64,000 nt of DNA, from the NCBI RefSeq assembly GCF_018446385.1, contig NC_055996.1, positions 125,709,750 through 125,773,749 on the forward strand, read 5' to 3'. Both the position numbers and the translations under genes were made by a program. This document shows, piece after piece, positions 25,445-64,000 of this stretch. The stretch is from Zingiber officinale (taxonomy: Eukaryota > Streptophyta > Magnoliopsida > Zingiberales > Zingiberaceae). Under the pieces are notes generated by a model. That model had not been told where the DNA came from, searched no databases, and saw only the letters and a list, made by a program, of their open reading frames with translations. Position 1 is the first letter of the stretch; every line of letters begins with the position of its first letter.

Positions 25445-26273
<829 letters not shown>

Positions 26274-37332: not shown

Positions 37333-37578
37333 ATCTCTGTTTTGCTCCAAATGAATGTTCTACTCCTTCCTTGCTTCTCCAATACTTCCATGCCTATAAA
37401 GAAGTCATGGCCAGCTCATGGAAGCAAAATTTCAACCTGAAAATAAAAGAAACAACGAATTTAAAAGTATTAACTATTGAAATGAAAACTGAAACTAAAA
37501 ATACTAAAAGAACCCTTGAGTTGCCTCCCAAGAAGCGCTTGTTTAGGGTCTTTAGCTTGACCGTTCTCCTTGATCATT

Positions 37579-38550: not shown

Positions 38551-38947
38551 GGTCCGTCCGCTCCTAAGTTCGATGCGATTGCAATGCTCTATCGGATTTA
38601 CATCAGATTTTCCAGGAAATTGCCCTGGTGCACTTAAAGATGATGAGGCTAGCTGGGCAATTTGGCTATCTTAGATCTTTTGATGCTTTTCAGAATTATC
38701 CATTCTCTGAGTCAACTTCAAAATATCTTGCTTCATTTCGTTTTGATTAGAGATAATTTCCTCAAGCATCTTTTCAATTTTAGAAAACTGATAGCCTTGA
38801 GAAGATTGTTGTTGTTGCTGAAAATTTTGTTGTCCGGATTGGAAACTTTATTTGCCTCCCATGGATGGTCCTTGTTCTTGATTATTTCTGTAGGAAAAAT
38901 TTGGATGATTCTTCCACTCAGGATTATGTGTTGGAATATGGATTGTT

Positions 38948-42685: not shown

Positions 42686-43998
42686 TCATATGTAACCTAG
42701 CATAAGCTTTCCCTTAGTATTAGAGACACTAAATCGGTATCCTAAACCCGATCTATCATTGTTGGGTCTTTGACTACCCAACATTATACCTAAACCCTTA
42801 GATCCAATATTGAATCTTTCTAGGGTTTTCTCCAACTTGTCAATCTTTGCCTTCAAAGCTTGATTTTCCCTTTCTAGGTTCCTAAACCTAGAGTCAACAT
42901 GTCCACCATGGACATTCCTATACCTACCATTTCTAGGCATGTGTCTCCCATTATTGGGATTAATGCCTAAGTTCTCCTTAGGTTTACCATTTCTAGGTTT
43001 ATCATGCATATATCTCCTATGGTTATGATCTATATTTACCCTATTTCTATCATGATATTTAAATCCAAAATTTTGCATGAGTAAATAATAAAAATTATTT
43101 CTAGTATACATAGGAGTATAAGAATCATAATTGCAATTCAAGTTAGGGTATACCTCCCTTACCCTTGAAGTTCCCCCTTGACTTGAGCTCCTCTTCTTCT
43201 CTTTCTCCCATTTTTTTAATTGCGCTAACTTCTTGATCTCCCTCTTCTTAGGGCATTTGGTATGGTAGTGGCCCTTCTCCCCACACGTGAAACATCTAAT
43301 GCACATTTCCTCCTTTGGGATTCTTCATTCCTACAACCCTTGTTAGTTTTTAAATTAACTTGAATGAGTTTAGGATTTACCTTCTTCTTACCCATTGGGC
43401 ACCTACTCTTGTAGTGCCCCTTCTCATTGCACCCGAAGCAAATGATGTGGTATTTTGACTTCACTTCGGTGGAGATGCTCACTAGGTTGGCTACTTCCAA
43501 GACATCTTCATCCGTCTTGGCTTCTTCTTCAACTTTTGAAGATGTAGATGATGCCTCATCTTCTTTCTCCTCCTCGAATGTTGGGCATGACTCAACTTCC
43601 GTTTGCTTCTCCTCAACTTAAGTAATTAAACTCATCTTCTTGGATTCTTCTTCTTCTTGTGTAGGTTTAGGTTCTTCCCGTAGAACCATCTTCACCTTGC
43701 TCCATAACTCGTGGGCATTCTTATACTTACCTACACAACTCATAACATCATTAGGCAAAATATCAATTAATATTGATATTACCTTTGAATTTGCCTCCGA
43801 TTGTGAGGTTTGCTCTTCCGTCCAATATCTTGGTCGAAGTCTCTTCCCTTTCTTGTCTTTTGGGACTTCAAATGGCTCCTTGGTCGCCATCATGGTAATC
43901 CAATCCGTGTTGAAGAAGACCTCCATCTTCATCATCCAAAATGTGATGTCCCCTAGGCTTCCTCCTTCAAACTTTGGCGGATCTATCAAGTCGGTCAT
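42686..43998 (-). pseudogene. Gag pseudogene of element D
   Basis: It starts MTDLIDPPKFEGGSLGDITF and has the N-terminal capsid-like region (WMMKMEVFFNTDWITMM, ILPNDVMSCVGKYKNAHELW). There is a TAA at 43618, after which the same frame continues through the first knuckle CFGCNEKGHYKSRC. A frameshift near 43310-43330 follows, then the second knuckle CFTCGEKGHYHTKC, a basic region and a coiled coil (RNLERENQALKAKIDKLEKTL). It ends with the LGSQRPNNDRSGLGY motif known from Copia/SIRE-type gag. The layout equals that of gag in B and C, with lower identity. Two lesions make it non-functional. Confidence 0.85.
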
Positions 43999-44037
43999 CT
44001 TTGCTTCCTTGGTGGTTAGTCCAATGGAGAGCGTCTT

Positions 44038-44049
44038 GCTCTAATACCA
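44038..44049 (-). other. Primer-binding site of element D
   Basis: TGGTATTAGAGC on the minus strand differs by one C to T change from TGGTATCAGAGC, the complement of the 3' end of initiator Met-tRNA. It lies two bases after the LTR. Confidence 0.85.
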
Positions 44050-44051
44050 CT

Positions 44052-45031
44052 TGTAGGGGATCTTGTGGCCAGCTAGAAGGGGGGTTGGATAGCTAGGTCA
44101 CCCCCAAATCGATAGCTTCCTACACTAGTTAATTTGCGTAGTGGAAATACAAACTAATATGAATATAAAGAAAGCTAAAGACAAAGAAAAACAAGCAAAC
44201 CAATACATGCCAATGTAACGTGGTTCGGAGATAGCTTGCTCCCACTCCACGATTGTCCGTAAGGTGGACGATCCCGATCATTGATGGATGACTCCCCGAC
44301 AAACTCCGGCTATCTCACGTAGCTAATTGTGGATGGAGAAACCTCATCATAACTCTCACAAGAACTCTTGAGATGCTAGGATACAGGTAGACTACTAATA
44401 GGGGTTAACCACCTCTATTTCGTCAGTCTTAACCAAGCTCCAAAGCCTTGGTTATATAGGCCACGGTTTGGATTCTTTGGAAAACCCCGTCCACCAGTCG
44501 ACTGCCCTCTGTGAAGATTCGACCGTTACATCTCAACGGCTCAATACCAGTCGACTAATAAAAGTACCAGTCAACTGCTCCACACCGGTTGAGCGAACAG
44601 AAGCATTTTATTCGCTCCCAGTCGACTGATGAAACCACCAGTCGACTGGTACCCGAGTATAATCTCTCAGCACTTGGACCCTCACCCTTACGACTCAGTC
44701 GACTCCTCGTTGTAGCTTTGACCTCTTGCCTTCAAGCCTTCCTTTGACTCTCATCCCTCATATGCACCCAAGCCCGCGGCTCGTCTTAATGTCATCCTTC
44801 GCATATACCTCAAAGTCGCTTCCCTCGGGCCTTGTCCTTGTTGCCTTGTCCATGATCCTTCGGATGCTCCATCCTTCACCGGACTTGAAGCCATTAACCC
44901 GAGTCATATGTGTATCCTACAAACCTGCATAACTCAAATACATATATCAAATAAAAGGGTAAACCTAACATAAACCCTTTGCCCAAACACCAAAATACAT
45001 GGTCGCACGGACCATTGGGATTGCTCTAACA
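44052..45031 (-). repeat. 5' LTR of element D
   Basis: 980 bp, TGTAGGGGATC to TCTAACA. TATA box TATATAAC (minus) at 44452-44458. GTCGAC palindrome cluster at 44490-44660, just upstream of it in element orientation. It is 40 bp shorter than the 3' LTR; part of the difference lies in the palindrome cluster. Confidence 0.9.
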
Positions 45032-45036
45032 TAAAT

Positions 45037-45536
45037 AAACCAAGCCGATCGTGAGCTACTCGAAGCCAAATTTGATAAAAGCTCATTTGAACTCGTTTAA
45101 TGAGGCTCGTTAAGATAAACAAACCAAGCTCAAGCTTCACAATATTCGGCTCGTTAGCTCATGAACATGTTTGTTAAGCTCATGAATTAACTTTTAAATT
45201 AAAAAATAATAGTTTTAATATTGAATTTATAGATTTTATATTCTACTTATAAAAAATATAGACAAATATATTAAATTTATTTATTAGAATAAAATTATAA
45301 ATTTTAATAAGAATATTATAATTTTCTCTAAATATATAATTTAGTTTTTAATAAATACTTAAATTTATAATTTATATTTATTAAGCTCGTTTAGACTCGA
45401 TAAAAGCTTGAATAAGCTCGTGAGTCATGAATATATTCGTTAAATAAAGCTCAAGCCCGACTCCATTATAAACGAGCCAAACTCAAACATTCAAGAGTTC
45501 AGTTCGGCTCGACTCGACTCGACTCGATTACACCCC
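45037..45536. mobile_element. TA-flanked MITE, right piece
   Basis: Continues from 30937. AT-rich centre with AGCTCGTTTAATGAGGCTCG and GGCTCGACTCGACTCGATTACACCCC near the ends, then TA at 45537-45538. Without element D the MITE is about 511 bp. Class not certain: a TA duplication suggests Tc1/mariner-like or other TA-targeting elements. Confidence 0.65.
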
Positions 45537-45538
45537 TA

Positions 45539-45992
45539 GGGAAAAGGTATGATGAGAGAGAAAGTATGCTAAGAGAAAAAGTGTGATAGTAAAAAATGAA
45601 GAGAGTGAAAGGGTGATGAGAGAAAATGAGGAGAGAGAAAGTATGATGAGAGAAAATGAGGAGAGAGAAAGTATGATGAGAGAAAATGATGAGAGAGTGT
45701 GTGATGGGAGAGAATGAAGAGAGGAAAAGTGTGATGAGAGAAAATGAGGAGAGAGAGTATGGTAAAAGAGAATGAGGAGAGAGAAAATATGATGAGAGAG
45801 AAAGTATGATAAAAAATGAGGCGAGAGTGTGTAATGGGAGAGAAAGTGTGATGAAAGAGAAAGTGTGATTGAAAAGAATAAAGAGAGAGAAAATAAGGAT
45901 AGAGAGTGTGTGATGGGAGAGAGTATATGGGGAAAATGATAGAGAATGTATGATGAGAGAGAATGAGGAGAGAGAAAGTATGATGAGAGAAT
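45539..45992. mobile_element. Harbinger-like MITE copy 2, middle piece
   Basis: Purine-rich units (GAGAGAAAGTATGATGAGAG), as in the centre of the copy at 23936. A false 196-codon ORF runs through it on the minus strand (Ser/Leu/His periodic). Confidence 0.75.
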
Positions 45993-46058
45993 TGTTGGAA
46001 CCGAAATGTAGCTAGAGGGGGGTGAATAGCTCGTCGCGCGCTTCGTGTTCTTCGTTGC

Positions 46059-47119
46059 TGTTGGTGCAGGAAGCATCCGACGATCGAACCTTAGTTTTGA
46101 TAATGGCAAAGGATTCAAAGTTAAGTTAGTGTGTGATCTAACATGTTTGAATGAGTGTTTCAGGAAAGTCCTAGCTGCGGTTAGGCAGGAGAAAAACCCT
46201 AAGGGGCGGTAACCTTAGGTCCTAGGGGGCGGTAACCCTAGGTGGAGGAAAACCCTAAGGGGCGGTAACCTTAGATCCTAGGGGGCGGTAACCCTAGGTG
46301 GAGAAAAACCCTAAGGGGCGGTAACCCTAGGTCCTAGGGGTGGTAGCCCTAGGCGAAAAGTCTAGTCGGTCTGGAAGACCGGACTGGCATCAGGTAATCT
46401 CTCCTGAGGGGAGTAGGTGAGGACGCGTTCCCCGTAGAGGGAACAGTAGGCGTCGGGTCGACCTAGGGTTTCCGGTAGGAAATCCGAAGTCAGACTCGGA
46501 CAGTCCGAAGACTGTCGTTTATTCTTTACTATGTTTTATCAGATTCTAACGCTGTCTTGCAGGGTATTTTGCTCGGACTAACCTTTGTTTGCTGGTGAGG
46601 AACCTGCTGGAAAAAGGTGGTCCGGGCGCCCGGGACCAAATATTATCCCCTACGCGACTTCGCCACGTGGAGCAACCTGGTTGGCTGGCCACGTCACACT
46701 CCAGGCGCCCAGAAAGGTCCCAGGCGCCCGGAACCTCATATAAAAGGAGGGTCGAGGGTGCATCGACAAGCTTTCCTTCTGCTGTGTGCTGCTCAAGAAA
46801 CGACTCTAAAGTGCTGTTACAGTCGCCGACGACCCGAAGCTTCAGTTATTACTTTGTTGTCGGTATTATTTCAATTCCAGTTGTACTAATCTCCTTGTAC
46901 TTATTTACGATATTATAGTTGTTGCCCACAGGAAGCGATCAAGGATCGCGGGCCTTCGAGTAGGAGTTGCCTTAGGCTCCGAACGAAGTAATTCCCTGTG
47001 TCTCTGTGTTTGACTGTTTTTATTCCGCTGCTTATTACTCTCTCGTACGACTTACGATTTCGAAAAAGAAATAGCCACGAGCGCTATTCACCCCCCCTTC
47101 TAGCGCTTTCGATCCATCA
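46059..47119 (+). mobile_element. Solo LTR, 1061 bp, nested in the 3' LTR of B
   Basis: TGTTGGTGCAGG to GATCCATCA, with GTTGC at 46054-46058 and 47120-47124. TATA box ATATAAAA at 46738-46745. Just upstream is the perfect 12-bp palindrome CCGGGCGCCCGG (46622-46633) and two more GGCGCC words. A tandem block of CCCTAAGGGGCGGTAACC-like units fills 46190-46350. The 3' end (CTATTCACCCCCCC) resembles the Copia-type LTR ends in this window. Confidence 0.92.
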
Positions 47120-47819: not shown

Positions 47820-50217
47820 TGTTGGTTGCTACTCGGAAAGCCTATAGGTTCCACTGTACAAAAATTTTGTACAAAGGTCTGAACCTTTTCCTAGCTACCA
47901 TGTGTTCTTTTAAATTAAATTTTGGATCTCCTGCGGAACTTAACACGTTTGATCCAAAACTTAATCAATTTGTTCTTTTAGGTTTTGACTTGGATCTCCT
48001 GCGGAACTTAACACGTTCGACCCAAGTCTCCTTAAGTTATTAATTCCATTAAATATCAATTTCCATAAAAGGTTCCCAGTACTGACGTGGCGAGGCACAT
48101 GGCCTTCTTGGATATGGGAGCAACCACCACCGACTAGACAAAACCTTTAATAGAAAGCTAATATTTAATTTCCTAAAATAACTTTAGGTTAACCAAAGAG
48201 AACAATCAAATCACAAGGAAAAGAAAGAAACAAAAGAACACAACTTCGAAAAACCATATTCGAAATACTAGAACGTAAGCCTCTTGTATTTGGTATTATT
48301 TCCATAAATAACTAGCATGATGCGGAAATAGAAATTACTAGTTATACCTTGTAGAAAAACCTCTTGATCTTCTACCGTATTCCTCTTCTAACCTCGGACG
48401 TTGTGTGGGCAACGATCTTCCAAGATGAGAAACCACCAACCACCTTCTTCTCCTCCAAGCAAGGTTCGGCCACAAAGGGAAACTTCACCAAGGAGGAAAA
48501 ACAAAATACTAACCAAGCTCCAAGAGATGCTAGCTTTCTCTCCTTCTTCTTCTTCTTCTCCGAGTAGTATCCGGCCACCACAAGAACTCCAAGGGAGAGG
48601 GAGAGGTTCGGCCACCACAAGAGGAAGAGAAGGAGATGATGGCCGGCCACACCAAGGAGCAAAAGAGGGAGAGGAATAATAGATGTTGTGTCTCATGAAT
48701 GCACCCTCACTCCTTCTTTTATATTCCTTGGCCTAGGTAAATTAGGAAATTTAATTACAATAAATTTTCCTTAATTTCCTTGACATGATTTAATTGAGAA
48801 AAATAAAATAATATTTCCCCAATTAAACAATGATGGCCGGCCAAAACAATAGGAAGCAAATTTGGACAAGTTTCAATCAACAATTAAAACTTTCCTTATT
48901 TGTTTCCGGAAATTTTAAAAAATAAAATTTCTCTTTAAAATCTCTTCATGGTTAATAAAAGGAAATATCTATAATTTTAATTTTATTAACATGTGAATAA
49001 TTTTAAAGAGAAAATAAAACATCTCTCCAATCTACAAATAAGGAAAGAGATCTAATCTCTTTCTTTAATCTTTTGTAAATTTTTACAAGAGAGATATTTT
49101 AATTTTAATTCTCTTTTAAATTAAATCTTCCACATAATAATAAACATTAAAATTAAATTTTCTTTTTAATTAATTATGGCCGGCCCTACTAGCTTGGGTT
49201 CAAGCTAGGGCCGACCACCCAAGCTTAGGCCCTAGCTTGGTTCCCAAGCTAGCTTGGCCGGCCCCTTTAGGTGGGTATAAAAGGTGGGTATATGTGGGTA
49301 TAGTACTCTATAAATAAGAGGCTACGATAGAGACCGAGAGGAGGAATTGGTTTTGGTCTCCGATAAAATTAAGCATCCCATGTTCGCCCGAACACACAAC
49401 TTAATTTTATCAATGATAATTCATTCCACTAGAGAACTATCATTGAACTACCGCACCAATCCCAAATTACATTTTGGGCTCCTTCTTATTATGAGTGTGT
49501 TAGTCTCCCTGTTTTTAAGATATCGAATGTCCACTAATTAAGTGAGTTACTGACAACTCATTTAATTAATATCTAAGTCCAAGAGTAGTACCACTCAACC
49601 TTATTATCATGTCGGACTAAGTCCACCTGCAGGGTTTAACATGACAATCTTTATGAGCTCCTCTTGAGGACATTACCAACCTAGTATCACTAGGACACAG
49701 TTTCCTTCTATAATCAATAACACACACTATGAGTGATACCATTTCCCAATTTATCGGGTTTATTGATTCATCGAACTAAATCTCACCCATTGATAAATTA
49801 AAGAAATAAATATCAAACATATGTGCTTGTTATTATATTAGGATTAAGAGCACACACTTCCATAATAACTGAGGTCTTTGTTCCTTTATAAAGTCAGTAT
49901 AAAAGGAACGACCTCAAATGGTCCTACTCAATACACTCTGAGTGTACTAGTGTAATTATATAGTCAAGATAAACTAATACCTAATTACACTACGACCTTC
50001 TAATGGTTTGTTCCTTTCCATTCTGGTCGTGAGCTACTGTTTATAATTTATAAGGTACTGATAACATCATCTTCTGTATGTGACACCACATACTATGTTA
50101 TCTACAATATAAATTAAATGAACAACTACAAAACAAATGTAGATAATTAGACCAAATGTGATTCTTTATTCATAATGAATGTTTACAAAGCTTAGGCTTT
50201 CAGTATACACTCCAACA
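47820..50217 (-). mobile_element. Solo LTR, 2398 bp, nested in the 3' LTR of B
   Basis: Ends are TGTTGG and CCAACA, with GGGGA duplications at 47815-47819 and 50218-50222. Orientation is probably minus: it would then start TGTTGGAGTGTATACTGAAAG, a Copia-like LTR start, and have AATATAAAAG near 48718 as TATA box. A plus-strand TATAAAAGG near 49277 leaves some doubt. The short ORFs at 48364-48696 come from low-complexity leader sequence. Confidence 0.85.
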
Positions 50218-51172
50218 GGGGACTCATCCGATCGATCGGCCGATCAATTGGACATGAGCCAATCGATCGGCTGATCGATCTAGCTCTTGGTTTTTGCCCT
50301 AAAACCAAGTCCAAAGCCCCCTGAACCAACATTCGGTCAACCCTTGACCTGTTGGTACATGTGTCTAGCATCCGACCATCCTTAGCCTGCTAGGACTCCC
50401 TCACCAAGTGTCTGGTCAATCCCTTTGACCCACTTGGACTTTTCTTCCTCGTACCAAGTATCCGGTCAATCCCTTTAACCTACTTGGACTTTCACTAGAT
50501 GTCTGGTCAACCTTGACCCATCTGAATTTTCTCGTGCCTGGCTTCACTCACCCGGGCTTCCCTTCTGCTTAGCTTCACTCACTAGGACTTCTCATCTGCC
50601 TGGCTTCACTCACCAGGACTTTCCTTCTGCCTGGCTTCACTCACCAGGACTTTCACCTAGCTTCACTCACTAGGATTTTCACCTGGCTTCACTCACCAGG
50701 ATTTTCCTCTGCCTGGCTTCACTCACTAGGATTTCCTCACTACCTAGCTTCACTCACTAGGTCTTTCACCTGGCTTCACTCACCAGGATTTTATTCTGCC
50801 TGGCTTCACTCACCAGGACTTCCTTTGCCTAACCTCAAAGTTAGGACTTTCACCTGGCTTCACTCACCAGGATTTTCCTCCTGCCTGGCTTCACTCACCA
50901 GGACTTCCTTTGCCTAACCTCCAAGTTAGGACTTTCACCTGGCTTCACTCACCAGGATTTTCCAGTCAAGTATCCGGTCAACCTTGACCTACTTGACTCT
51001 CCATCACAATCTCCACACATGAACAATTATACTTGTAATCTCCATATGTTATCTACATGTATTGTCAAACCATCAAAACATAAACATTAAAACTCGAGCT
51101 TGACCCAATTCAAGCTCAGTCAAATTAGGTCAACCTTGACCTGGGGAATATTGCACCAACAATCTCCCAACA

Positions 51173-51187
51173 ATCTCCCCCTTTTTG
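51173..51187 (-). other. Polypurine tract of element B
   Basis: The minus strand reads AAAAAGGGGGAGAT directly before the LTR start TGTTGGGAG. The identical tract precedes the 3' LTR of element C. Confidence 0.9.
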
Positions 51188-53410
51188 ATGTTTGACAATA
51201 CCTTCTTTAAGTTAGGCTAATCCCATAGCCTAAACCTCCTTCATGTCACTAGGTAATGAAGGCCTAAGTTAAATCCTTCATTCTCCTCCTAAGAGCAAAC
51301 TCCCTCTTAGATAATGAAGTCCTAACTTAAACCCTACATTCTCCCCCTATTGGCACACATCAAAACAAACTCTCCCCCTGAAGAGTTACTTAACGTTGTT
51401 CACAACTTCACTCGTTGTGATCAACCCGATAATGAAAGTCTCATACCTTTTATTTATCTTTAACCCTACATTCTCCCCCAATGTAGACAAATGCCCAACC
51501 TTGAGCATTTACAACTTAAATAATGAAGATATCCACTCTCCATTGTAATCCAATGCTCAACCTTGAGCATCTTTCACTAAGGAAGGTTAACCACCTTCCA
51601 CGGTGTATGAAAATTTAGTTTTCATATCCTTAAAGAGTAACTTCCCCTAAAGACATGGTCATGACTTCTGTCATTGCACCAACAATGACTTGGAATCCCT
51701 AAATCTTTAGGAAACCCACTTTAAAAGTTTTGAGGTTCAAAAATTCAATAATGAAACCAAACCTCAACCTAACTTCTACCTAGTCTCCCTTAACCAATCC
51801 ATCCTTATTTTCATCATGAAAACTTCCCCTAAATGTATACAAATATGTTTTTGAGGGGTTTAGAATGGTTTCCTAGACTAAACAAGGGTCAAACCACTGA
51901 AAATCAGCTTTCCTAGCTGAAATCAGGTTCCCCAATCGATTGGAGTTGGGTCCCAATCGATTACACTGCCTTGAATCGATCCACTGATCGATTCAGCCAG
52001 TCTGGATCGATCGACTGATCGATCCAGCGAGCTTCTACTCGGGAGAACAGCCTTCTCAATCGATCGGCTGATTGATTGAGGCACTCCAATCGATCGGGTG
52101 ATTGATTAGAGACCTGAAATTGTTGAAATTCAATTTCAGCCAATTTCAAAAACCCCTAGAAAATTCTACAAAATTTTAAAAATCATGAAAATCGTTTTAG
52201 ACATTATTTAGGGCATATATTATCATGGAAAAATAGTTTTATAAGAAAATACTTCATATTTTCCAAGATTGACACAAACTTGAAAACTTGCAAAAACCTT
52301 AGTGTTTTCTTCCAAGTTTGTGCTTAACTTTTCAATGATGATCACTATCAAAAGATAGCCTTCACCAAGGTTTTCCAAAAGCTTTTTAAAATGATTTTCA
52401 AAACCAATATCCAACCATGTTCCTTGAGCTCAATGCACATGACTTGTACATTAGTTTTTCCAATGATTGAAAAACACATAACTATGTGTTTTGATAAACC
52501 TAAAACTCAAAAGAATGTACTAAATCAACATCTTGAGTTTTGTTCATCATCCTAACATCTCACTTATATTTAATGTGTACTAAACCACATACAAGTCACC
52601 TTATAGTTTGTGTGAGATGTTAACTTTTGGTTATGCCCTAATCTAGGGATCATGCATATCTATCTAGGCATTCTTGGGGTTATTTACATCCACCAAGGAT
52701 GTTACTTGTTGATCAATGTCATTTGTCCTTAATTGTAAGGAATTAAATTCAATGCATGATGTGGTATGACATACATCAAAATAGAAATAATTTTCAAAAG
52801 AAAATTTCCTATAACTATATGATGTATGGATGACATGACATGGTATTTTTGTGTTTTTCATAATAAGGCATGAGTGCAAACATAAATAAATAAATATGAT
52901 GTCATGACATTTGATGGGCAAGCGAAGCATGGCAAGTTAGCATAGATAAAATACCTAGATTACCTATCTAAGTATCCTTAACCCTTAGCTAACTTAAAAA
53001 TTTAAACCCTAGATTGCCCACTATTTCCCAAGAAAATGTCAAAAACCAAATTTGACATTTCTTTTGCTTTTCCTAATTTGTGCCAATTTAAATTAAGCAT
53101 ATTCCTCAAATTTTGGCACAATTTACTCTTTTAAAGAGTAATCAATTGAGTTAAGGCTTAAATTTGCTTTTAACTTCCTAATAACATACCAAAATCCCAA
53201 CTTGGTAGTTCTTATGATTTACTCAAATTGTGTCATTTAAAATTTCATCCAATTTATCAAATTGTGACACATTTTACTCTTATAAGAGTAAATAAAAATT
53301 CTTTTCATTTTCAAAGGTTAACAATAACCTTGAAAATGCTCCCCGAGTGTCAACTTCATCAAAGTTGGGTTAACTACCCTTCTAATCGGAGTTGACACTC
53401 TCTAACCCAT
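51188..53410 (-). mobile_element. 3' untranslated region of element B
   Basis: About 2.2 kb without credible ORFs, colinear in parts with 61060-62900 of element C (for example the segment on two-line repeats of CTCCGATTAGAAGG and the ATGTCATGACATCA words). A CGATCG/GATCGATC palindrome array sits at 51926-52112. Confidence 0.8.
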
Positions 53411-55136
53411 TTATGGGGTAGAGAAAATGCTCCTAGGAACCCAACATCTATTGGTGCTCCTTGGATGCTCTAGGTATTCACTAGGGATAACTTCCCTAGA
53501 TATCTTCCTAGTGACTTTGTTTGACTTTTTAGAAGCCTTGGCCACTTTTTCTAGGTTAACTCTAGGGATTCCTACTCTAGTGACATTGTTAGTGACTTTC
53601 TTGGACTTTTTAGACGTCTTAGTCACTTTTGTTGCAAAAATACTCTTAGGAATAACCTTCCTAGTATTTTTGACTTGACCATTTGACCTAGACTCGGTTC
53701 CAAAGCTATATGGAACCCTATTGTAAGAAATTACATCCTTCTTAGCCTTTGGTTTGTATCTCAAACCTCTATGGCCATTGGATGACTTTTGTTGTCCTAA
53801 ACCTAGGTTTTGACTCCTTAACCCTTGTGTATCATTTGTGATTTTTCTAAGAGTCCTTTCCAATTTATCAAGTCTTGACCTTAAGACTTGATTTTCTCTC
53901 CATAACTCCTCAACCTTAGATTTTTCATTTACACTTTGATTTTTTCCTTTTCTTAGGTAAATATCTAAAATCCTTAGGGTTATTTTCTAATTGGTTATCT
54001 ACCTTCCTAGCCTTAGGTTTGGTAGTTTTAGCATGAAGAGCCACATGATTTTCATTAATTTTATCATGCTTCTTATTTTTATGATAAATAGCATTAAAAT
54101 GATATAAATTAGAACTAGCATGCTTTTTACCATTATTTAAAAGGGTAGGCTCAATAAATGATATCTTTCTTTTTACCTTGGAGGCTCCCCCTTGACTTGT
54201 GCTTCCTCCAAGAGCCTTGACCGCCTTCTTCCCCTTGGGACATTGGCTCCTATAATGCCCTTTTTGATTACAAGAGAAGCACACAATGTATTCCTTGCTC
54301 TTCTTTGTTGCGGGAGCGGTCTCCTTAGGCTTCACCTTGCCCTTTAGTGCCACTTGGCCCTTCTTCTTGGCCAGTTTGGGGCACTTGCTCTTGTAGTTCC
54401 CATGTTCCCTACACTCAAAACATATAATATTATTTTTATTTTTAATTGAAACATTTTTACCTTCATGTGTAGGGATGACACTTGCTCCTCCATTTGATGT
54501 CTCTTGATTTTTGGAGGATGCATCGTCTTCTTCTCCACTTGACTCGGATGTAGAAGCTTCTCCTTCTTCTTTATCCGATGTCACCAAGGGTTGCTCCCCC
54601 TCAATCCTAGAGGTGGAGGCTTCTTCATCTTCATCTTCTACATGGAACAAGGAGTATGTCCTCTCCTTGCCCTCTTCATTGCATTCCTTTGAAGATGAAG
54701 CTTCTTGGACTTCTTCTTTGGAAGTTGAGCATCTCTCAACCTCGGAGTCCTCCTCTTCTCGGTCTTGCTCCAATGAGTCACCCTCTTTGGATTTATCTTG
54801 ACTTGGTACAGTGGAGGGTTCTTCGTGAAGCAATGCCAATTTACTCCAAAGCTCCTTGGCATCCTTGAATTCTCCAACTTGAGCCAAAATATTGCTTGGC
54901 AATATATTGACCAAAAGCTTGGTCACTTTATCATTTGCCTTGCTCCTTTGAACTTGCTCTTGACTCCATTTCCTTTTCTTGAGAGACTTGCCCTTGGAGT
55001 TTGTTGGAACTTCAAATCCTTCCATGAGAGCAAACCATTGCTCTATCTCCATCATCAAGAAATTCTCGATCTTTGATTTCCAAAGATCGAAGCTTGTTGA
55101 AGTAAATGACGGAGGCACCCTTGTATCGAATTCCAA
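53411..55136 (-). pseudogene. Gag of element B, broken by one frameshift
   Basis: The first open part (55136-53925, 403 codons) begins MEFDTRVPPSFTSTSFDLWK. It holds the capsid-like region, an acidic Ser/Glu-rich linker, and two knuckles: CFECREHGNYKSKC (His4 preserved) and CFSCNQKGHYRSQC. It ends in a basic stretch at a TGA. The second part (53863-53411) carries the coiled coil and the conserved tail EVIPSEYL...RCWVPRSIFSTP, which is nearly the same as in element C. The shift is at a run of six A near 53937-53942. The coiled coil is open in another frame right from that run, so a single-base indel is enough to explain it. It would be the structural protein of the particle. Translational frameshifting at the A run cannot be excluded. 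Confidence 0.88.
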
Positions 55137-55267
55137 GCCCGTCTTGGAATTCCATTTGAAGTTGAGCTTCTTGTGATAAAGTCTTCGACTTGTAGAATTG
55201 CTCCAACTTCTTCACCCTCTAGCTTTTTCCCTTTTCGGTGATGATTACGGTGAAGAGTGGCCTCAGT

Positions 55268-55276
55268 CTGATACCA
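55268..55276 (-). other. Primer-binding site of element B
   Basis: TGGTATCAG (minus), two bases after the LTR. The next bases (ACTGAGG) diverge from the initiator Met-tRNA complement, so pairing is shorter than in C. Confidence 0.8.
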
Positions 55277-55278
55277 CT

Positions 55279-56981
55279 TGTTGGGACCGAAATGTAGCTA
55301 GAGGGGGGGGTGAATAGCTCGTCGCGCGCTTCGTGTTATTCGTTGCTTGTTTCTTTGATGGTGTGCAGCGGAAATACAAGAAACAAAAACATATAACGCT
55401 AACACTTAAGGATTTACTTGGTATCCACCTCACAAGAGGTGACTAATCCAAGGATCCACATACGTACGCACCCTCCACTAATAAAACACTCCTTTATGGT
55501 AACTACTGAAGGCAGAGAAGCCCTACAAGACTCTCAATACAAGAAGAAAGAAAAGGGCAGTAAAGAACAAGCAAAAGCTTATAAGAAGTGCAATAAAAGC
55601 CCTAACCCTAACTTCTCTTCTTCGCCTCTTGACTTGGACAAAACTTCCAAGAATCTTCAAGATCTGGCGTGAAGAGCTCTATGGAGAAGCTGTGGAGTCA
55701 CCTGTGAAGATCGGAGCTGTATGCGTGAAGTTCTGCTGAAGGAAACGCTCGCCTGCAGCTAAATACGACGCCAACGGTCGGATCCCGATTGATTGGATTG
55801 CTCCCAATCAATCGGGGAGGCTTTGGATCGATCCACTGATCGATCCAGAGTGCCTCTGTATTCTCGGGAAAACGCCTGGATCGATCGACTGATCCACTAA
55901 TCGATTGGAGCCTCTGGATCGATCGGCTGATCGATCCAGAGAGGTTCTGTTCGTGCGACATTCCTCCCCAGTTGATCCACTGATCGATTGGGAGGATCCC
56001 TGTCGCGGGGACTCATCCGATCGATCGACCGATAGATTGGACATTAGCCAATCGATTGACTGATCGATCCAGCTCTTGGTTTTTGCCCTAAAACCAAGTC
56101 CAAAGCCCCCTAAACCAACATCCAGTTAACCCTTGACCTGTTGGTACATGTGTCTAGCCTCCTACCATCCTTGGTCTGCTAGGACTCCCTCACCAAGTGT
56201 CCGGTCAATCCTTTTGACCCACTTGGACTTTTCTTCCTCGTACCAAGTATCCGGTCAAACCCTTCGACCTACTTGGACTTTCACCAGATGTCTGGTCAAC
56301 CTTGACCCATCTGAATTTTCTCGTGCCTGGCTTCACTCACTAGGACTTCCCTTCTGCCTAGCTTCACTCACTAGGACTTCTCATCTGCCTGGCTTCACTC
56401 ACAAGGACTTTCACCTAACTTCACTCACTAGGATTTTCACCTGGCTTCACTCACCAGGATTTTCCTCTGCATGACTTCACTCACCAGGACTTTCACCTAG
56501 CTTCACTCACTAGGATTTCCTCACTACCTAACTTCATTCACTAGGTCTTTCACCTGGCTTCACTCACCAGGATTTTCTTCTGCCTGGCTTCACTCACTAA
56601 GACTTCCTTTGCCTAACCTCCAAGTTAGAACTTTCACCTGGCTTCACTCACCAGGATTTTTCTCCTACCTGGCTTCACTCACCGGACTTCCTTTGCCTAA
56701 CCTCCAAGTTAGGACTTTCACCTGGCTTCACTCACCAGGATTTTCCAGTCAAGTATCCGGTCAACCTTGACCTACTTGACTCTCCATCATAATCTCCACA
56801 CATGAACAATTGTACCTGTAATCTCCATGTGTTGCCTACATGTATTGTCAAACATGTATTGTAACATGTATTGTCAAACCATCAAAACATAAACATTAAG
56901 ACTCGAGCTTGACCCAATTCAAGCTCAGTCAAACTAGGTCAACCTTGACTTGGGGAATATTGCATCAACAATCTCCCAACA
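55279..56981 (-). repeat. 5' LTR of element B
   Basis: 1703 bp, TGTTGGGACCG to CCCAACA on the plus strand. Array of CCTGGCTTCACTCACCAGG-type hairpins at about 56090-56780, GATCGATC palindromes at 55787-56072, and a weak TATA-like GTATTTAG (minus) at 55760-55767. About 43 bp of the palindrome array that are present in the 3' LTR near 47655-47700 are missing here, between short GATC words. Confidence 0.9.
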
Positions 56982-56986
56982 AGAAT

Positions 56987-57235
56987 GAGGAGAGAGAACA
57001 AGAAGCGAGAAAGTGAAATGAAAGAAAAATTGAATAAATATATTAGGGGTATTTTTATCCAATACTTAATTTTCATTTTCATTCCAATCAAAAACCCAAG
57101 GGAAGAGGTAGGTTTCATCAATACCTAAGTTTTTAGGTTTCATTCCAAAATCTTGATTCCATTTCCATCAACCAAACACAAGATTTGAGAATAAATCCAT
57201 TCCCTCATTCTCAAACCCCTAAACTAAACGCCACT
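56987..57235. mobile_element. Harbinger-like MITE copy 2, right piece
   Basis: Ends with CTAAACTAAACGCCACT, a decayed inverted end, then TTA at 57236-57238. ATTCCAATC, GGTTTCATTCC and CCATTTCCATCAACCAAACAC blocks match the right arm of the copy at 25000-25130. Without insertions this copy would be about 1.04 kb. Confidence 0.75.
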
Positions 57236-57238
57236 TTA

Positions 57239-57603
57239 GTGTATTATTGGATTGATGAGTTGATATATTTTAATTAGTAGTGAAAGTTATGGTTATAGAT
57301 ATTGTTTATGTTTAATATATTTGGAATAGTAAGTATGTAGTTGAGTTAGTGAATAAGAGACAATGAGATAATAGTTGCATTGTGGAATTAGTGATTAATG
57401 TTGAAGGGTTAGTAAGTTATGTATTAGCTTATAAATAGGTGGCTTGTTGATTTACATCGAGAAAAATTATTTTATCCTTCTTGTCTATCCTTGACCTTCT
57501 ATTATTGTGTCAATCTTTTCTATTATTTTTCTTAACATTAGTATTAAAGACAAGTTTCAAGGAGAGTCATGGCTTTCAAAAGTCTGGTACAACTAGTCAT
57601 TCC
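57239..57603 (+). mobile_element. Old Copia LTR and gag start, interrupted by element C
   Basis: An AT-rich segment with CTTATAAATAGG near 57430 ends TTCTTAACA at about 57533. It is followed by TTAGTATTAAAGAC, a decayed version of TTGGTATCAGAGC, and then by an ATG (57570) opening MAFKSLVQLVIP, a typical beginning of Copia gag. Element C starts 34 bases after that ATG. Confidence 0.5.
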
Positions 57604-57860
57604 TGTTGGTGCAACCATAGGTCAAGGTTGACTTGGTTGACCTGACTCGAGTTGACCTGACTCGAGTTGTATTTTGATGTTTGACCTAGGAAGATTGTTG
57701 GTGCAACCTTAGGTCAATGTTGACCTAGTTGAGTTGTATTTTGATGTTTGACACTCGTGGAAGAGTTGTATTCTTGATATGGGACAAGAATAGATGTTTG
57801 GGAGATTATTGGTGCAACCGTAGGTCAAGGTTGACCTGGTTGACCTGATTCGGGAAAGAG

Positions 57861-58535
57861 TCCAAGTATGGAGACTTGGCAACGGAAAAAGTCCAAGCAG
57901 GGAACTTGGCACTGGAAAAGTCCAAGTAGGGAGCTTGGCACGCGAAAAATCCAAGTGTGGAGACTTGGCACGGGAAAAGTCCAAGTATGGAGACTTGGCA
58001 CTGGAAAAGTCCAAGTATGGAGACTTGGCACGGAGAAGTCCAAGCAGGGAGCTTGGCACGAGGGAAAGTCCTAACTGGGATGTTAGGCAGGTGGAAAGTC
58101 CCGGTGAGTGAAACCAGGCAGTGGGAAAGTCCTAACTGGGATGTTAGGCAGGTGGAAAGTCCTGGTGAGTGAAACCAGGCAGTGGGAAAGTCCTAACTGG
58201 GATGTTAGGCAGTGTGGAAAGTCCTGGTGAGTAAAGCCAGGCAGTTGTGGAAATCCTGGTGAGTGAAGCCAGGTGAAAACCCTAGTGAGTGAAACTAGGT
58301 GAAAGTCCTGGCGAGTGAAGCCGGGCAAGGGAAAATCCAGATGGATCAAGGGTGATCGGACATCTGGTGATGGGAAGTCCAAGTAGGTCATAGGAGTGAC
58401 CGGATACTTGGTACGGAGAGAAAAGTCTAAGTGGGTCAAAGGGATTAACCGGACACTTAGCGGGGAGTCCTAGCAGGTCAAGGGAGTGACTGGATGCTAG
58501 GCGCAATATACCAACAGGTCAAGATTGACTGGATG
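57861..58535 (+). repeat. Array of about 20 hairpin units with varying paired arms
   Basis: Successive units are CCAAGT-n-ACTTGG, CCAAGC-n-GCTTGG, CCTAAC-n-GTTAGG, CCTGGT-n-ACCAGG, CCTAGT-n-ACTAGG, CCAGAT-n-ATCTGG, CTAAGT-n-ACTTAG, CCTAGC-n-GCTAGG and CCAACA-n-TGTTGG. The late, longer units also have inner arms such as GGTCA/TGACC. Loops are 5-8 bases in the short units. Confidence 0.9.
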
Positions 58536-58569
58536 TTGGTTTGGACTTGGTTTGGACGAAAACCATGAA

Positions 58570-58938
58570 CTAGATCGATCTGGTGATCGATCCAGTGATA
58601 CCTCGAATATTCTGATCGGTCTGGTGACCGATCGATGCTATCGATAGCCTCGTGTGATGGCGATCGATCGATGACCGATCGGAATCGTCGAAGCGAGCGA
58701 GGCGGGCGCAGGGGCTGATCGGTGCGGGGACCGATCGGCCTGCTGATCGGTCCCGGCCGATCAGGAAGTTCCTGATCGATGCGTGGACCGATCGGAGCCT
58801 GATCGGTCTGTGGACCGATCAGGAGGTTCCCTGATCGGTCCATGGACCGATCAGAGATGAAACAGAAGCGAAGGCTAGGAATGGATCGGTGTGTGGACCA
58901 ATCCACATGGAGCCTGATCGGTCCACAGACCGATCCAG
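58570..58938 (+). repeat. GATCGGTC/GACCGATC palindrome array
   Basis: About ten words of the form GATCGGTCNNNNGACCGATC, some shortened, spaced 20-40 bp. The last lies about 65 bp before the TATA box. Confidence 0.9.
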
Positions 58939-59001
58939 GCACTAGCCGTTGCGACACAACGGCTAGACTTCTTCTGTGTTTTCTTCGCTTTCTTCGCAGG
59001 T

Positions 59002-59009
59002 TATAAAAG
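59002..59009 (+). promoter_or_regulatory. TATA box of element C 5' LTR
   Basis: TATAAAAG in GGTTATAAAAGGAAGG. The transcript should start about 25-30 bases downstream, dividing U3 from R. Confidence 0.8.
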
Positions 59010-59548
59010 GAAGGCTGCTGCTGCGAGCTTCGACCCTACTTCTTCCTGTCCCTAAGTGCTGCTGTGCTTGAGCTTTGTTGAGCTCCTCCAAAAGCTTCGC
59101 GTGAGCTTCTTCCTTCGGCTGGGACTCCGACTGAGCTGCTGCTGTGGTTGGCGTCTGAGAAGCTGTTGCTTCTTCAACAGTCGACAAGAAGGCAAGGGTT
59201 GTTTACATTTGCTGTGTATTTACTTCTTGCTTCTCTTGTATTTGTACTTCTTATCTTGCTGTTGCAAGAAGTAGTTGTGGCGAGGTTTCTCCACCCATAA
59301 GGAGCTCATATTTAGCCGGTTCTCCGGGGACTCATCCACCGACGGATTGGTAGGCTTCGTCCACCTTACGGACACGCCGAGGAGTAGGAGTTCATCTCCG
59401 AACCTCGTTACATCGGGTTTTTTTTCTTCTCCTTAGTTTCTTCCTTGTATTTCCGCTGCGACTAACCCTAACTGTAGGAAGAACGCGAGAATTTGGGGTG
59501 GCTATTCACACCCCCCCTCTCTAGCCGAGTACGAACGATCCTAACAAG

Positions 59549-59560
59549 TGGTATCAGAGC
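59549..59560 (+). other. Primer-binding site of element C
   Basis: TGGTATCAGAGC, exact complement of the 3' end of plant initiator Met-tRNA without CCA context, two bases after the LTR. Confidence 0.92.
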
Positions 59561-59607
59561 GAGGCCGCTCTTCGACGGATCAACACCCGGGGGAGCACGG
59601 GCTAGAG

Positions 59608-61059
59608 ATGGATCTCTATAGAGAAGATGTCACGATTCAACCCTTCTACGAGTCTCACGACAACTTCACGTATTGGAAGGTAAGGATGATGTATTTTCTT
59701 AGGACTAATATGTTAAATTGGTTTTGTGTACAAGAAGGGTTTTCCCCTCCGATGGATGAGGAAGGAAAACCTATCAAGAAGAAGGAGTGGACGAAAGAGC
59801 AAATCCGACAATCCGAAATCAATGACGAGGTAACAAAAATTATTGAATTTGTTTTACCTAATAATGTTTTGTGCAAGATAGATAGGTACAACAACGTCAA
59901 GGAATTGTGGAACAATTTGGCAAAATTCCATGAAGAGGAGCCTAGTGAGCCAAGTAGCTCACATCATGGAGGAAGCGAATTGGGAGTTGAGGGCTACTCA
60001 ACATCCAAGGAAGAAGAGGAGGAGAGCTCTTGTTCAAGATCGGAGCAAGAAGAGGCATCTACCTCCGGAAGGGATGAAGAAGAAAGCTCATCTACATCCA
60101 CAACCCTAGGTAACTCAAACACTGTGATTTCAAGCAAATTACACATAATGTGTTTTGAGTGTAGGAAGTTTGGGCACTACAAGAGTAAGTGTCCAAAGAG
60201 GGTTAGAAAGACTCCACCGGCACCAAAGGTCAAGGAAGTCGGAGTCTCGACATGCAAGAGCAAGAAGCACGTGGTGTGCTTCCAATGCAAGCAACAGGGA
60301 CACTATAGGAGCCAATGTCCAAGGGGGAGGCAACCTCACAAGGACAAAAGACCAAGTACGTGTAAAGGGGGAGCGAAGGCAAACCCTAAGGTATCCTCTA
60401 AGGTTCATTCTTGCACTTCTAATAAGATACATGCTAGTAGTCTTATTGCAATTGTCAAGAATGATAAGCATGTTAACTTTAGGAACCAATATATGTGCTT
60501 AGGTGCTAAACATGTTAGCCTAGATAAGGATAACACTAGGAAAGCCAACCCTAGGATCAACTCATCTAAGGCTAAGGAAAATCTAGGTAGAAATCCCAAA
60601 ACTACTCGACATATGCCTAGGAGTACCTCAAGGAACAATGACAAATTAAAACTTGAGGTATTAGAAAAGGAGAATCAAGTCTTGAGGTCAAGACTTGATA
60701 CTTTGGAAAAGGCTCTTAAGAACTTGGAGAAGTCATCTCTAGGGTTTAAGGGTCAAAAATCCAAGTCAAAGGACAAGAAAGGTTTGGGTCACAAACCTAA
60801 GTCCCAAACGGCCAAGCCCACTTATCACAATGTTCCATTCGATTATGGAACAAAATCTAGGGTTATGAAGACCAACACCAAGGTCACAAGGGGAGTCACC
60901 CCTAGAGTTGATCTTGATGAGTCCCAAATGGCCAAGGTTTTAAAGCCTAAGAGGGTCATTAGGAGGGTTGCTAGGGAAGTTATCCCTAGTGAATATTTAG
61001 TGAACCCAATGAGCTCTAATAGGTATTGGGTTCCTAGGAGCATCTTCTCTACCCCATAG
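59608..61059 (+). CDS. Gag polyprotein of element C, intact, no pol
   Basis: From the first ATG (59608) there are 483 codons to a TAG; a longer frame would need a GTG inside the primer site. Residues about 8-120 are the capsid-like part (FYESHDNFTYWKVRMMYFLR, VLPNNVLCKIDRYNNVKELW), as in Copia gag. A Ser/Glu-rich acidic linker follows, then two CCHC knuckles, CFECRKFGHYKSKC and CFQCKQQGHYRSQC, near residues 190-245. Basic linkers come next, then a coiled coil (LEVLEKENQVLRSRLDTLEK) and the tail EVIPSEYLVNP...RYWVPRSIFSTP. In complete Copia elements protease would start about here; this frame simply stops. The protein should assemble particles and bind element RNA. Confidence 0.9.
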   Translation: MDLYREDVTIQPFYESHDNFTYWKVRMMYFLRTNMLNWFCVQEGFSPPMDEEGKPIKKKEWTKEQIRQSEINDEVTKIIEFVLPNNVLCKIDRYNNVKELWNNLAKFHEEEPSEPSSSHHGGSELGVEGYSTSKEEEEESSCSRSEQEEASTSGRDEEESSSTSTTLGNSNTVISSKLHIMCFECRKFGHYKSKCPKRVRKTPPAPKVKEVGVSTCKSKKHVVCFQCKQQGHYRSQCPRGRQPHKDKRPSTCKGGAKANPKVSSKVHSCTSNKIHASSLIAIVKNDKHVNFRNQYMCLGAKHVSLDKDNTRKANPRINSSKAKENLGRNPKTTRHMPRSTSRNNDKLKLEVLEKENQVLRSRLDTLEKALKNLEKSSLGFKGQKSKSKDKKGLGHKPKSQTAKPTYHNVPFDYGTKSRVMKTNTKVTRGVTPRVDLDESQMAKVLKPKRVIRRVAREVIPSEYLVNPMSSNRYWVPRSIFSTP

Positions 61060-62894
61060 ATGGGTTAGAGAGTGTCAACTCCGATTAGAAGGGTAGTTAA
61101 CCCAACTTTGAGGAAATTGACACTCAAGGAGCATTTTCAAGGTTTTGAGAACTTTTGAAAATGAAATGGAATTATCATTTACTCCTTTGAAGAGTTAAAT
61201 GTGCCTAAAAGATTGGAAATTTCATTTTTAATCTCAATTGGCATAATTTGGGAAAATCTAGAGAACTCTCGAGGAAAACTGAAACATGCCAAGTTTTGAG
61301 GATAAATTTGATCTTTAAGTGGCATGAATTAATCTAGAGTTCAAGAAGTGTCAAAATTAGGATTTTGGCATTTTGGGGCAATCTACGATTAAATTTGAAG
61401 TTAGCCAAGTGGTTAAGGATACTTAGATAGGTAATCTAGGTATATTTATTTATGCTAAATCTTGCCATGATTATTTGTCCTCACATGTCATGACATCATG
61501 TTTAGTTTTATTATCATTTGAAATGTCATGATAATGCTTAGGCTAGTTTTTATGTCATGTTTATTTAAGTTTCAAACTTTATGCCATGACATCATAACAT
61601 TGGCACATATCTTCATTTATGATACCATTTTATGCCATGTCATCATCTCTTGCATTAATAATCAATTGAATTGATTTAAGGATGAAAAACACATTTTGAT
61701 ATTGAGATCAAATTTGTGTTTAGAAAATGCATGAGACCTTAGTCTAAGATATCTAAACCCATATCTTACATCAAAATTGCCATGGATGTGTTTGATACAC
61801 TTTAGATGTGTGTGAGATATTAGGATCATGAATTAGGATCAAGGTGTATAGTGCTTGTACCTAGATGAGCCTAATTCAAGAAATGGAGGATCATAGGGAA
61901 AGCTTGTGTACAAGTCATGTACATTTAGCCCTAAGATTATGGTCCTAAATTAAAAGGTTTAAAATCATTTTAAAATTGATTTGGAAAACCTTGATGAAGC
62001 CATCTTAGTGATTGCATTCATCATTGAACATTGTGATACAAAGTTGAGTTAAACTTGAACTATTTCAAAGTTTTTGAACTTTGTATCAAGATTGAAAAAT
62101 GGAAGTTATTTTCATAAGAAACTATTTTTCCATGATAGTATATGTTATGAGGAATGTATCCTCAAAATTTCACAATTTTTCGAATTTTATAGAATTTTCT
62201 AGGAGTTTCTGAATTTCGGGAAGGAAATTTCAGAAATCTCCTGTCAGAGTCTGGATCGGTCTGGGGACCGATCCAGGGAAGTCCTGATCGGTCTGCAGAC
62301 CGATCCAGTGAAGCATGGATCGGTCTGCAGACCGATCCAGTAAGATCCAGAGGCCTGAAATGAAGCATGGATCGGTCTGGGGACCGATCCAGGGGGCTTT
62401 TGATCGGTTTGAGGACCGATCAGTGCGTGCCAGTTTCTGATTTTCAGCATGTGTCTGAAATTTCAGTTTTTGGGAGTTGAGTTTCGGGTTTCTAAAGGTT
62501 TGAAACTCTCCAAGACATTGTTGGTGCAATGGTCAAGGGGGAGTTGACCTTTAGGGGGAGTTTTTACCTAATTGTCAAGGGGAGTTGACTCTTAGGGGGA
62601 GTTTTTACTCCTTAAGACTTTTGAGGATTAGTGACATAGGATTGTCACTAAGTTGATTGTTGAGTTTAGTATCAAGGGGGAAATTAAGAGTTTCAATGAA
62701 AGGTATGAGACTTTCATTAGGAGGAAACTCTTGACCTTGATTCTCTCTTTTTGATGTGTGTTAAAAAGGGGGAGAGTGTTGGAGAATGGGAGAATGTTCT
62801 AGATAATGTTCAAGGAAGAACATTGAAGAACATTGGGAAACCTAAGTTAGGTTATCGGATTAACCTAACTTGATTATGGTTTTGTCAAACATCA
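61060..62894 (+). mobile_element. 3' untranslated region of element C
   Basis: 1.8 kb without an ORF of interest. It holds the internal palindrome array at 62248-62430 and, from 62530, several GGGGGAGTT and AAGGGGGAGA words, which look like additional purine tracts before the true polypurine tract. Confidence 0.85.
62248..62430 (+). repeat. Internal GATCGGTC/GACCGATC array of element C
   Basis: Five to six units of GGATCGGTCTGNNGACCGATCC type (two have the extra centre CTGCAG), the same flavour as in the C LTR. It lies about 470 bp before the polypurine tract. Confidence 0.9.
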
Positions 62895-62907
62895 AAAAGG
62901 GGGAGAT
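62894..62907 (+). other. Polypurine tract of element C
   Basis: AAAAAGGGGGAGAT directly before the LTR start TGTTGGTGC. Confidence 0.92.
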
Positions 62908-64000
62908 TGTTGGTGCAACCATAGGTCAAGGTTGACCTGGTTGACCTGACTCGAGTTGACCTGACTCGAGTTGTATTTTGATGTTTGACCTAGGAAGATT
63001 GTTGGTGCAACCTTAGGTCAAGGTTGACCTAGTTGAGTTGTATTTTGATGTTTGACACTCGTGGAAGAGTTGTATTCTTGATATGGGACAAGAATAGATG
63101 TTTGGGAGATTATTGGTGCAACCGTAGGTCAAGGTTGACCTGGTTGACCTGATTCGGGAAAGAGTCCAAGTATGGAGACTTGGCAACGGAAAAAGTCCAA
63201 GCAGGGAACTTGGCACTGAAAAAGTCCAAGCAGGGAGCTTGGCACACGAAAAGTCCAAGTGTGGAGACTTGGCACGGGAAAAGTCCAAGTATGGAGACTT
63301 GGCACTGGAAAAGTCCAAGTATGGAGACTTGGCACGGAGAAGTCCAAGCAGGGAGCTTGGCACGAGGGAAAGTCCTAACTGGGATGTTAGGCAGGTGGAA
63401 AGTCCTGGTGAGTGAAACCAGGCAGTGGGAAAGTCCTAACTGGGATGTTAGGCAGGTGGAAAGTCCTGGTGAGTTAAACCAGGCAGTGGGAAAGTCCTAA
63501 CTGGGATGCTAGGCAGGTGGAAAGTCCTGGTGAGTGAAACCAGGCAGTGGGAAAGTCCTAACTGGGATGTTAGGCAGTGTGGAAAGTCCTGGTGAGTGAA
63601 GCCAGGCAGTTGTGGAAATCCTGATGAGTGAAGCCAGGTGAAAACCCTAGTGAGTGAAACTAGGTGAAAGTCCTGGTGAGTGAAGCCGGGCAAGGGAAAA
63701 TCCAGATGGATCAAGGGTGATCGGACATCTGGTGATGGGAAGTCCAAGAAGGTCATAGGAGTGACCGGATACTTGGTACGGAGAGAAAAGTCTAAGTGGG
63801 TCAAAGGGATTAACCGGACACTTAGCGGGGAGTCCTAGCAGGTCAAGGGAGTGACTGGATGCTAGGCGCAATGTACCAACAGGTCAAGATTGACTGGATG
63901 TTGGTTTGGACTTGGTTTGGACGAAAACCATGAACTAGATCGATCTGGTGATCGATCCAGTGATACCTCGAATATTCTGATCGGTCTGGTGACCGATCAG
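62908..64000 (+). repeat. 3' LTR of element C, partial
   Basis: Aligns with 57604-58635. It has four instead of three 61-bp units of the CCTAAC..GTTAGG/CCTGGT..ACCAGG pair. It leaves the window in the GATCGGTC array. Confidence 0.93.

Follow-up and report, generated by a model that had tools for sequence, protein, structure and literature searches.

What keeps the arms of neighbouring hairpins matched when their sequences differ? The question is raised by the U3 of a retrotransposon in Zingiber officinale, which carries a row of inverted repeats. An earlier note, made from the sequence alone, had proposed either selection for a folded nucleic acid or a copying process in which one arm templates the other. 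Here, these possibilities are considered for a window of 64,000 nucleotides (the whole stretch of DNA analysed; contig NC_055996.1, forward strand) and for copies of the array elsewhere in the genome.

Element C and its hairpin array

The array lies in the 5' LTR (TG...CA, 57604-59546, plus strand) of element C, a complete gag-only insertion of the Ty1/copia type. The LTR ends can be read in the sequence, and the direct repeat ATTCC, the target duplication, flanks both outer sides. The 3' LTR (plus strand), preceded by a polypurine tract at 62898, starts at 62908 and runs beyond the window end. An alignment of both LTRs has 69 differences in 1872 columns (K2P 0.038), as well as gaps, one of which is a 61-nt repeat of the array. 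A TATA-like box, TTATAAAAGG (59001-59010, plus strand), was taken as the promoter, and U3 probably ends shortly after it. Gag, with a zinc knuckle, extends from the first ATG at 59608 to 61059 (plus strand; open frame 59545-61059), and no frame of at least 150 amino acids is present between gag and the 3' LTR.

Judged by its cis-features and zinc-knuckle gag, element C is probably best classed among the Sireviruses, as a gag-only member. These elements are known for repeated palindromic motifs that precede the TATA box (Bousios et al. 2010, PMC2829016), and as a Sirevirus, element C is expected to carry palindromes upstream of its promoter. Indeed, GATCGGTC/GACCGATC units with the CGG-CCG core of the palindromic RM boxes are located at 58614-58935 (plus strand), upstream of the TATA-like box. 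The terminal polypurine tract AGGGGGAG, followed by AT/TG (62898-62909, plus strand), matches the signature described in PMC2829016, and copies of AGGGGGAG are found upstream of the 3' LTR at 62536, 62553, 62594, 62767 and 62898. The junction of this tract and the 3' LTR is flanked by an inverted repeat, one arm of which (62884-62897) adjoins the tract while its complement is at 62976-62989; the LTR is entered by 68 bases before this right arm is reached, further than the published average of 28 (PMC2829016). The junction of LTR and PBS, CA/AGTGG/TATCAGAGC (59545-59560, plus strand), follows the published form CA/A(T or G)TGG/TATCAGAGC, and a polyC-rich stretch close to the 3' end of the LTR (59507-59525, plus strand) resembles the integrase signal as described in the same source (PMC2829016). 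The CCHC zinc knuckle scores above cut-off with PF00098 in element C and its neighbour; Retrotran_gag_2 is found in the neighbour only, below cut-off. A second cluster of GATCGGTC-type palindromes (62248-62415), which precedes the polypurine tracts in the linker, recalls those described upstream of env in some Sireviruses (PMC2829016); here there is no frame of at least 150 amino acids.

The studied array, at 57862-58539, lies upstream of both the CGG-CCG palindromes and the TATA-like box. About 20 consecutive inverted repeats had been reported up to 58535; there are 21 units, the last of which ends 4 bases further on, and 15 have perfect 6-bp arms. On the basis of sequence and tandem structure, three groups can be distinguished on the plus strand. 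Short units u1-u7 (57862-58056) have arms of the CCAAGT/ACTTGG type and a period of about 30 nt, and short units u8-u16 (58070-58325) have arms of the CCTAAC/GTTAGG, CCTGGT/(A,G)CCAGG and CCTAGT/ACTAGG types with periods of 61 nt and 26 nt. Long units u17-u21 (58337-58539) have a variable 7-bp outer stem with an unpaired GGA on its 3' side; the second, inner stem (GGTCA/TGACC type) already seen in the long units is present in all five. The same array, longer by one 61-nt repeat, is found in the 3' LTR of element C (63166-63904, plus strand), and related arrays occur in the truncated 3' LTR (50326-50996) and the 5' LTR (56115-56779) of a neighbouring minus-strand element.

Watson-Crick pairs are formed at 120 of the 126 arm positions, compared with a mean of 85.1 after permutation of the arms, and none of 20,000 permutations reached this number. 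Exchange of arms between units destroys the pairing, as expected if arms differ between units yet match within them: perfectly paired units fall from 15 of 21 to a permuted mean of 3.0. For the 14 distinct arm pairs, 79 of 84 positions are Watson-Crick (permuted mean 55.1). Several imperfect units had been explained as G.T wobbles, which holds for four mismatches (T.G) in the six units concerned. The other two are C.A, and thus wobbles are not the sole defects.

The array also folds more stably than dinucleotide-shuffled controls on both strands (z -5.5 sense, -6.6 antisense, 20 shuffles per strand), a gain that the earlier note had named as a check. Whole-array folding was rejected as evidence of array-specific structure, since these elements beat their shuffles in gag and linker as well. 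In 400-base windows, most of the sequence from about 41 kb onward, where the Sirevirus-type elements are found, has clearly negative scores on either strand, and this applies to gag and linker too; a few low windows are found elsewhere (e.g. 801, 31201). The Sirevirus-type elements (41000-47000 and 48800-64000) are richer in local inverted repeats, coding parts too, than most of the remaining window, and this holds for both strands. Perfect 9-bp hairpins number 3 in gag of element C (0.0 expected), 6 in its linker (0.2), 12 in the internal region of the neighbour (0.8), 6 and 3 in the neighbour's LTRs (0.2 each), 4 in the 41-47 kb element (0.8), 3 in a gypsy stretch (1.2), and 5 and 4 in controls (3.3 and 3.0). 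The array stretch has none (0.0 expected) because its stems are shorter. Four Sirevirus gag frames contain more 7-bp stems than synonymous-codon shuffles (8 vs 2.2, 10 vs 2.4, 4 vs 0.6, 4 vs 0.8), as does one gypsy frame (4 vs 0.5); another gypsy frame leans upward (4 vs 1.6; 6/100 shuffles), and three other frames have no such excess of 7-bp stems. Hairpins of 7-8 bp exceed synonymous-codon shuffles in the gag frames at 59545-61059, 53411-55211 and 42686-43324.

Other repeats in the window include a 1.65-kb direct repeat (32466-34106 and 40242-41885, 93% identical) that looks like an LTR pair; our guess, from the layout, is that the element, whose frames are at 35298-39652, is of the gypsy type. 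Two related repeat tracts (24092-24891 and 45499-46214, about 75% alike) contain long reading frames with much Ser, Leu, Phe and His, which are probably spurious, and about 110 bases at 25452-25561 form a simple repeat that is self-complementary.

Pairing among genome copies

The genome searched (3.09 Gb, 211 contigs) yielded 7915 candidate places, of which 40 (L001 and L009-L047) were scored and all of these used. These are the closest relatives of the window copy, with 87-96% identity besides the window copy itself, and correspond to 33 insertions after merging of seven pairs 5.1-5.5 kb apart as LTR mates. The family of element C is gag-only; at least 6 other insertions among these 40 of 7915 candidates have two arrays 5.1-5.5 kb apart. 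Gain or loss of units causes misalignment of the short units u6, u7 and u14, making their shared states unreliable; the main test rests on u16-u21. The covariation set for these units contains 42 sequences (34 distinct), two of them from the neighbouring minus-strand element.

The structure of u16-u21 is paired in 98.3% of 2054 cells, compared with 96.7% in shuffles (0/500). Changes on both sides were found at 9 of 61 pairs (4.6 in shuffles, 1/500) and in 50 cells (12.7 in shuffles, 0/500), so that the joint change of arms is borne out across genome copies. When partner columns are slid by 1-3, pairing falls to 15-40%. There is no excess of further pair types over shuffles in these units (27 vs 29.0). 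The clearest covarying pairs are u19 pair 2 (CG 17, UA 17), u20 pair 2 (CG 23, UA 10), u21 pair 5 (CG 23, UA 7) and u18 pair 1 (CG 28, UA 6). At u19 pair 2 no intermediate occurs among the 34 distinct rows; G-U intermediates are present at other pairs of the array. The commonest core between the arms is identical for both arm types in u19 (18/25 and 8/17 rows) and u20 (21/31 and 5/10 rows). In u18 and u21 it differs between arm types, and thus swaps of longer pieces are possible there.

On a tree built from non-stem columns, with u15-u21 scored, 21 changes fall on internal branches: 10 two-sided Watson-Crick, 6 to G-U, 3 from G-U to Watson-Crick, none to A-C and 2 to other mismatches. The same five classes at the tips (59 changes) number 11, 20, 5, 12 and 11. 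One-sided departures from Watson-Crick on internal branches comprise 6 G-U, 0 A-C and 1 other. Identical double changes recur on the tree and are not all independent; together with the differing cores of u18 and u21, this recurrence implies that recombination between subfamilies moves some of them.

A stem variant or state was termed shared when found in at least three insertions, and private when found in fewer than three. All 7 shared pair states of the long units keep a standard pair (5 two-sided Watson-Crick, 2 G-U), compared with 10 of 29 private states (1 two-sided Watson-Crick, 9 G-U, 10 A-C, 9 other; Fisher p 0.002); one-arm breaks accordingly number 0/7 and 19/29. When the 40 family rows of u16-u21 are counted by column, 15 shared variants include 11 Watson-Crick, 3 G-U, 0 A-C and 1 other, and 30 private variants include 2, 9, 9 and 10, respectively; the resulting p values, 8e-6 for Watson-Crick and 3e-4 with G-U, are both too small because a two-sided change is counted twice. 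Unpaired columns of u16-u21 hold 27 private and 20 shared variants. From the split between shared and private variants it seems that the replicating lineage keeps the pairing and that the loss comes later, as would be expected if the element gains from it. The short units are less clean: states departing from a Watson-Crick majority comprise 3 two-sided Watson-Crick, 6 G-U, 3 A-C, 4 other one-sided and 1 other two-sided when shared, and 4, 16, 20, 16 and 3 when private.

A survey across families, anchored on the core alone, gave 144 units with 46 distinct 7-bp arm pairs. Six or seven of 7 pairs are formed in 27 of these (permuted mean 4.0, maximum 10) and fewer in 19; all nine arm pairs seen at least three times are perfect, and there are ten perfect 7-bp types overall. 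The odd pair in 6-of-7 units is A-C in 6 cases, G-U in 6 and other in 5. Among the pooled units, 14 have an A-C closing pair (CCAAGC/ACTTGG). The plan is the same in the divergent arrays of L057 and L058. An earlier core-anchored survey (223 distinct arm pairs, 569/1561 positions paired, permuted mean 396) was discarded because its anchor was not strict enough.

Two proposed readings: a folded strand or dyad boxes in DNA

The array is real and appears to be maintained, with the pairing itself kept as the family evolves. The explanation that we prefer, with some reserve, is that the array may have grown in tandem from the upstream portion of a Sirevirus LTR's palindrome-rich cis-region, and that its pairing is selected on a folded single strand, the likeliest being sense RNA. 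Tandem duplication would expand the upstream palindrome region into about 21 stem-loops and supply new units, compensatory change would let stem sequences drift while staying paired, and selection on the folded strand would keep the pairing. U3 occupies the 3' untranslated end of full-length LTR-element RNA, where it adjoins the polypurine tract. RNA is the first choice because of this position; stems that vary around a conserved core point to a single strand that folds. There the array might act as a repeated structural cis-signal that binds Gag, serves dimerisation or packaging, protects the 3' end or controls reverse transcription.

The step to sense RNA is weak. The wobble evidence is mixed, with 9 G-U and 9 A-C among the private variants by column, and the antisense fold gain over shuffles, which is at least as great as the sense gain, counts against it. 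Strand asymmetry of wobbles gave a mixed result as a test of RNA versus DNA and was dropped as proof; single-mismatch hairpins have no clear bias. The shared states of the short units, with 3 A-C and 5 other, and the 14 occurrences of the A-C closing pair also count against the preferred explanation.

Alongside it stands the reading that the array works as double-stranded DNA, i.e. as dyad-symmetric boxes for transcription or chromatin factors upstream of the promoter. This role has already been suggested for Sirevirus motifs (PMC2829016), and it agrees with the location of the array upstream of the TATA-like box and beside canonical palindromes, with a fold gain that is similar on both strands, and with the lack of a G-U excess among odd pairs. 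However, as arms differ between units (14 distinct arm pairs, ten perfect 7-bp types), there is no single half-site beyond the CC/GG ends, and the commonest cores repeatedly contain the unpaired GGA, which is asymmetric. We consider such boxes possible but rather unlikely.

The array is not entirely without precedent, and the statement of the earlier note that no LTR feature of this kind was known is not supported: palindromes upstream of TATA were already published for Sireviruses (PMC2829016), and in maize an LTR region that is structured, rich in palindromes and a site of small-RNA hotspots has been reported (PMC10760457, PMC5311732). Like the RM boxes, the array consists of tandem LTR palindromes upstream of TATA, and element C has canonical ones too. 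By contrast, RM boxes are described as one consensus palindrome per element, which has a CGG-CCG core with a single exception among the elements (PMC2829016), whereas the array has many arm sequences, an inner hairpin and the unpaired GGA, and none of its 14 arm pairs forms the CGG-CCG core. Without this core and with variable arms, it is a separate upstream array and not a standard RM cluster. In the available part of the published account of RM boxes (PMC2829016) a covariation test was not found. The region of a 2016 study (Genome Res 26:226), as related in PMC10760457 and PMC5311732, is likewise a structured, variable LTR cis-region and small-RNA hotspot, but it has the Copia motif CACCGGACNNNGTCCGGTG and is tied to host silencing, and pairing-preserving two-sided change is not mentioned in the available parts of these accounts. 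No covariation study of LTR hairpins was found in literature searches, which does not establish its absence in print. Sirevirus LTR palindromes are known, and the covariation of the array arms is new evidence. Six Rfam matches, all far below the gathering score and five of them in the canonical palindromes, were taken as chance; viral contigs contained no gag relative and gave two matches to a 17-base core.

Unit exchange, arm-templated copying and the meaning of the array

Covariation could be merely apparent if whole units had been duplicated or swapped between subfamilies, their ancestral hairpins having arisen by chance or from an older palindrome. There is clear tandem structure, and a 61-nt repeat is present in one LTR of element C and missing from the other. 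In addition, some alternative arm pairs occur as units in other families, there is homoplasy on the tree, and the cores of u18 and u21 differ too. Nevertheless, u19 and u20 share their commonest core across both arm types, and swapping leaves unexplained why one-arm breaks in the long units are absent among shared states (0/7) and frequent among private ones (19/29). We regard this origin of the signal as improbable.

Quasipalindrome template switching, in which one arm is copied from the other and both would change together (PMC7202029), could rewrite the arms during reverse transcription or host replication with no function needed. The CG and UA states of u19 pair 2 (17 each in 34 distinct rows, no intermediate) and the local hairpin excess throughout the element, gag included, are consistent with it; G-U intermediates at other array pairs are not. 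A general copying process would also maintain gag hairpins and leave substitution clusters matching the inverted template. Gag was compared in 26 sequences (of 51 loci retrieved, 25 had enough coverage to pass the filter), but it is also under coding constraint, and scoring is not quite alike, since a hairpin in gag counted if any copy had it perfect and those of the array were defined from the window copy. Shared gag states (at least 3 copies, departing from a Watson-Crick majority) comprise 3 two-sided Watson-Crick, 1 two-sided other, 13 A-C, 9 G-U and 8 other, and private states 2, 2, 5, 10 and 14. Pairing in gag hairpins is not maintained, a standard pair being kept in 12/34 shared vs 12/33 private states. 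Linker A (20 sequences) has 4 shared changes from paired states, none two-sided; in linker B (21 sequences, gappy alignment), two-sided Watson-Crick changes make up 3/30 shared and 11/136 private.

Substitution clusters that gained an inverted-template match number 2 in gag (2.6 expected), 2 in linker A (1.1) and 2 in linker B (0.2), the array being outside this test. The linker B value favours copying, but direct matches there are in excess as well (8 vs 1.8). Single substitutions have a mild excess of both kinds (in gag, inverted 13 vs 9.8, direct 14 vs 9.6). There is little sign of templated mutation in internal regions: gag and linker A lack the footprint expected of template switching, and in linker B it is doubtful. 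Arm-templated copying thus seems quite improbable. Between the two answers of the earlier note, selection on a folded nucleic acid fits better, given the unmaintained gag hairpins and the scarcity of templated mutation internally, and the linker B clusters remain a point for copying. Since gag and linker A have neither maintained hairpins nor an inverted-template signal in their clusters, retention of pairing is most simply explained by selection on the array.

Selection on a folded strand leaves the function of the fold to be considered. It is conceivable, if rather doubtful, that the array serves, in the 3' U3 of the element's RNA, as a structural signal kept by compensatory selection on pairing, through which gag-only elements are recognised or copied by the proteins of autonomous relatives. 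Why the structure persists despite inviting small RNAs has been raised as an open point (PMC10760457). The split between shared and private variants is a simple way to seek such signals in other high-copy families. Sirevirus LTR palindromes have so far been discussed as promoter boxes and silencing triggers; if the RNA-signal reading is true, the known palindromes would be, at least partly, RNA structures, beyond their role as promoter boxes.
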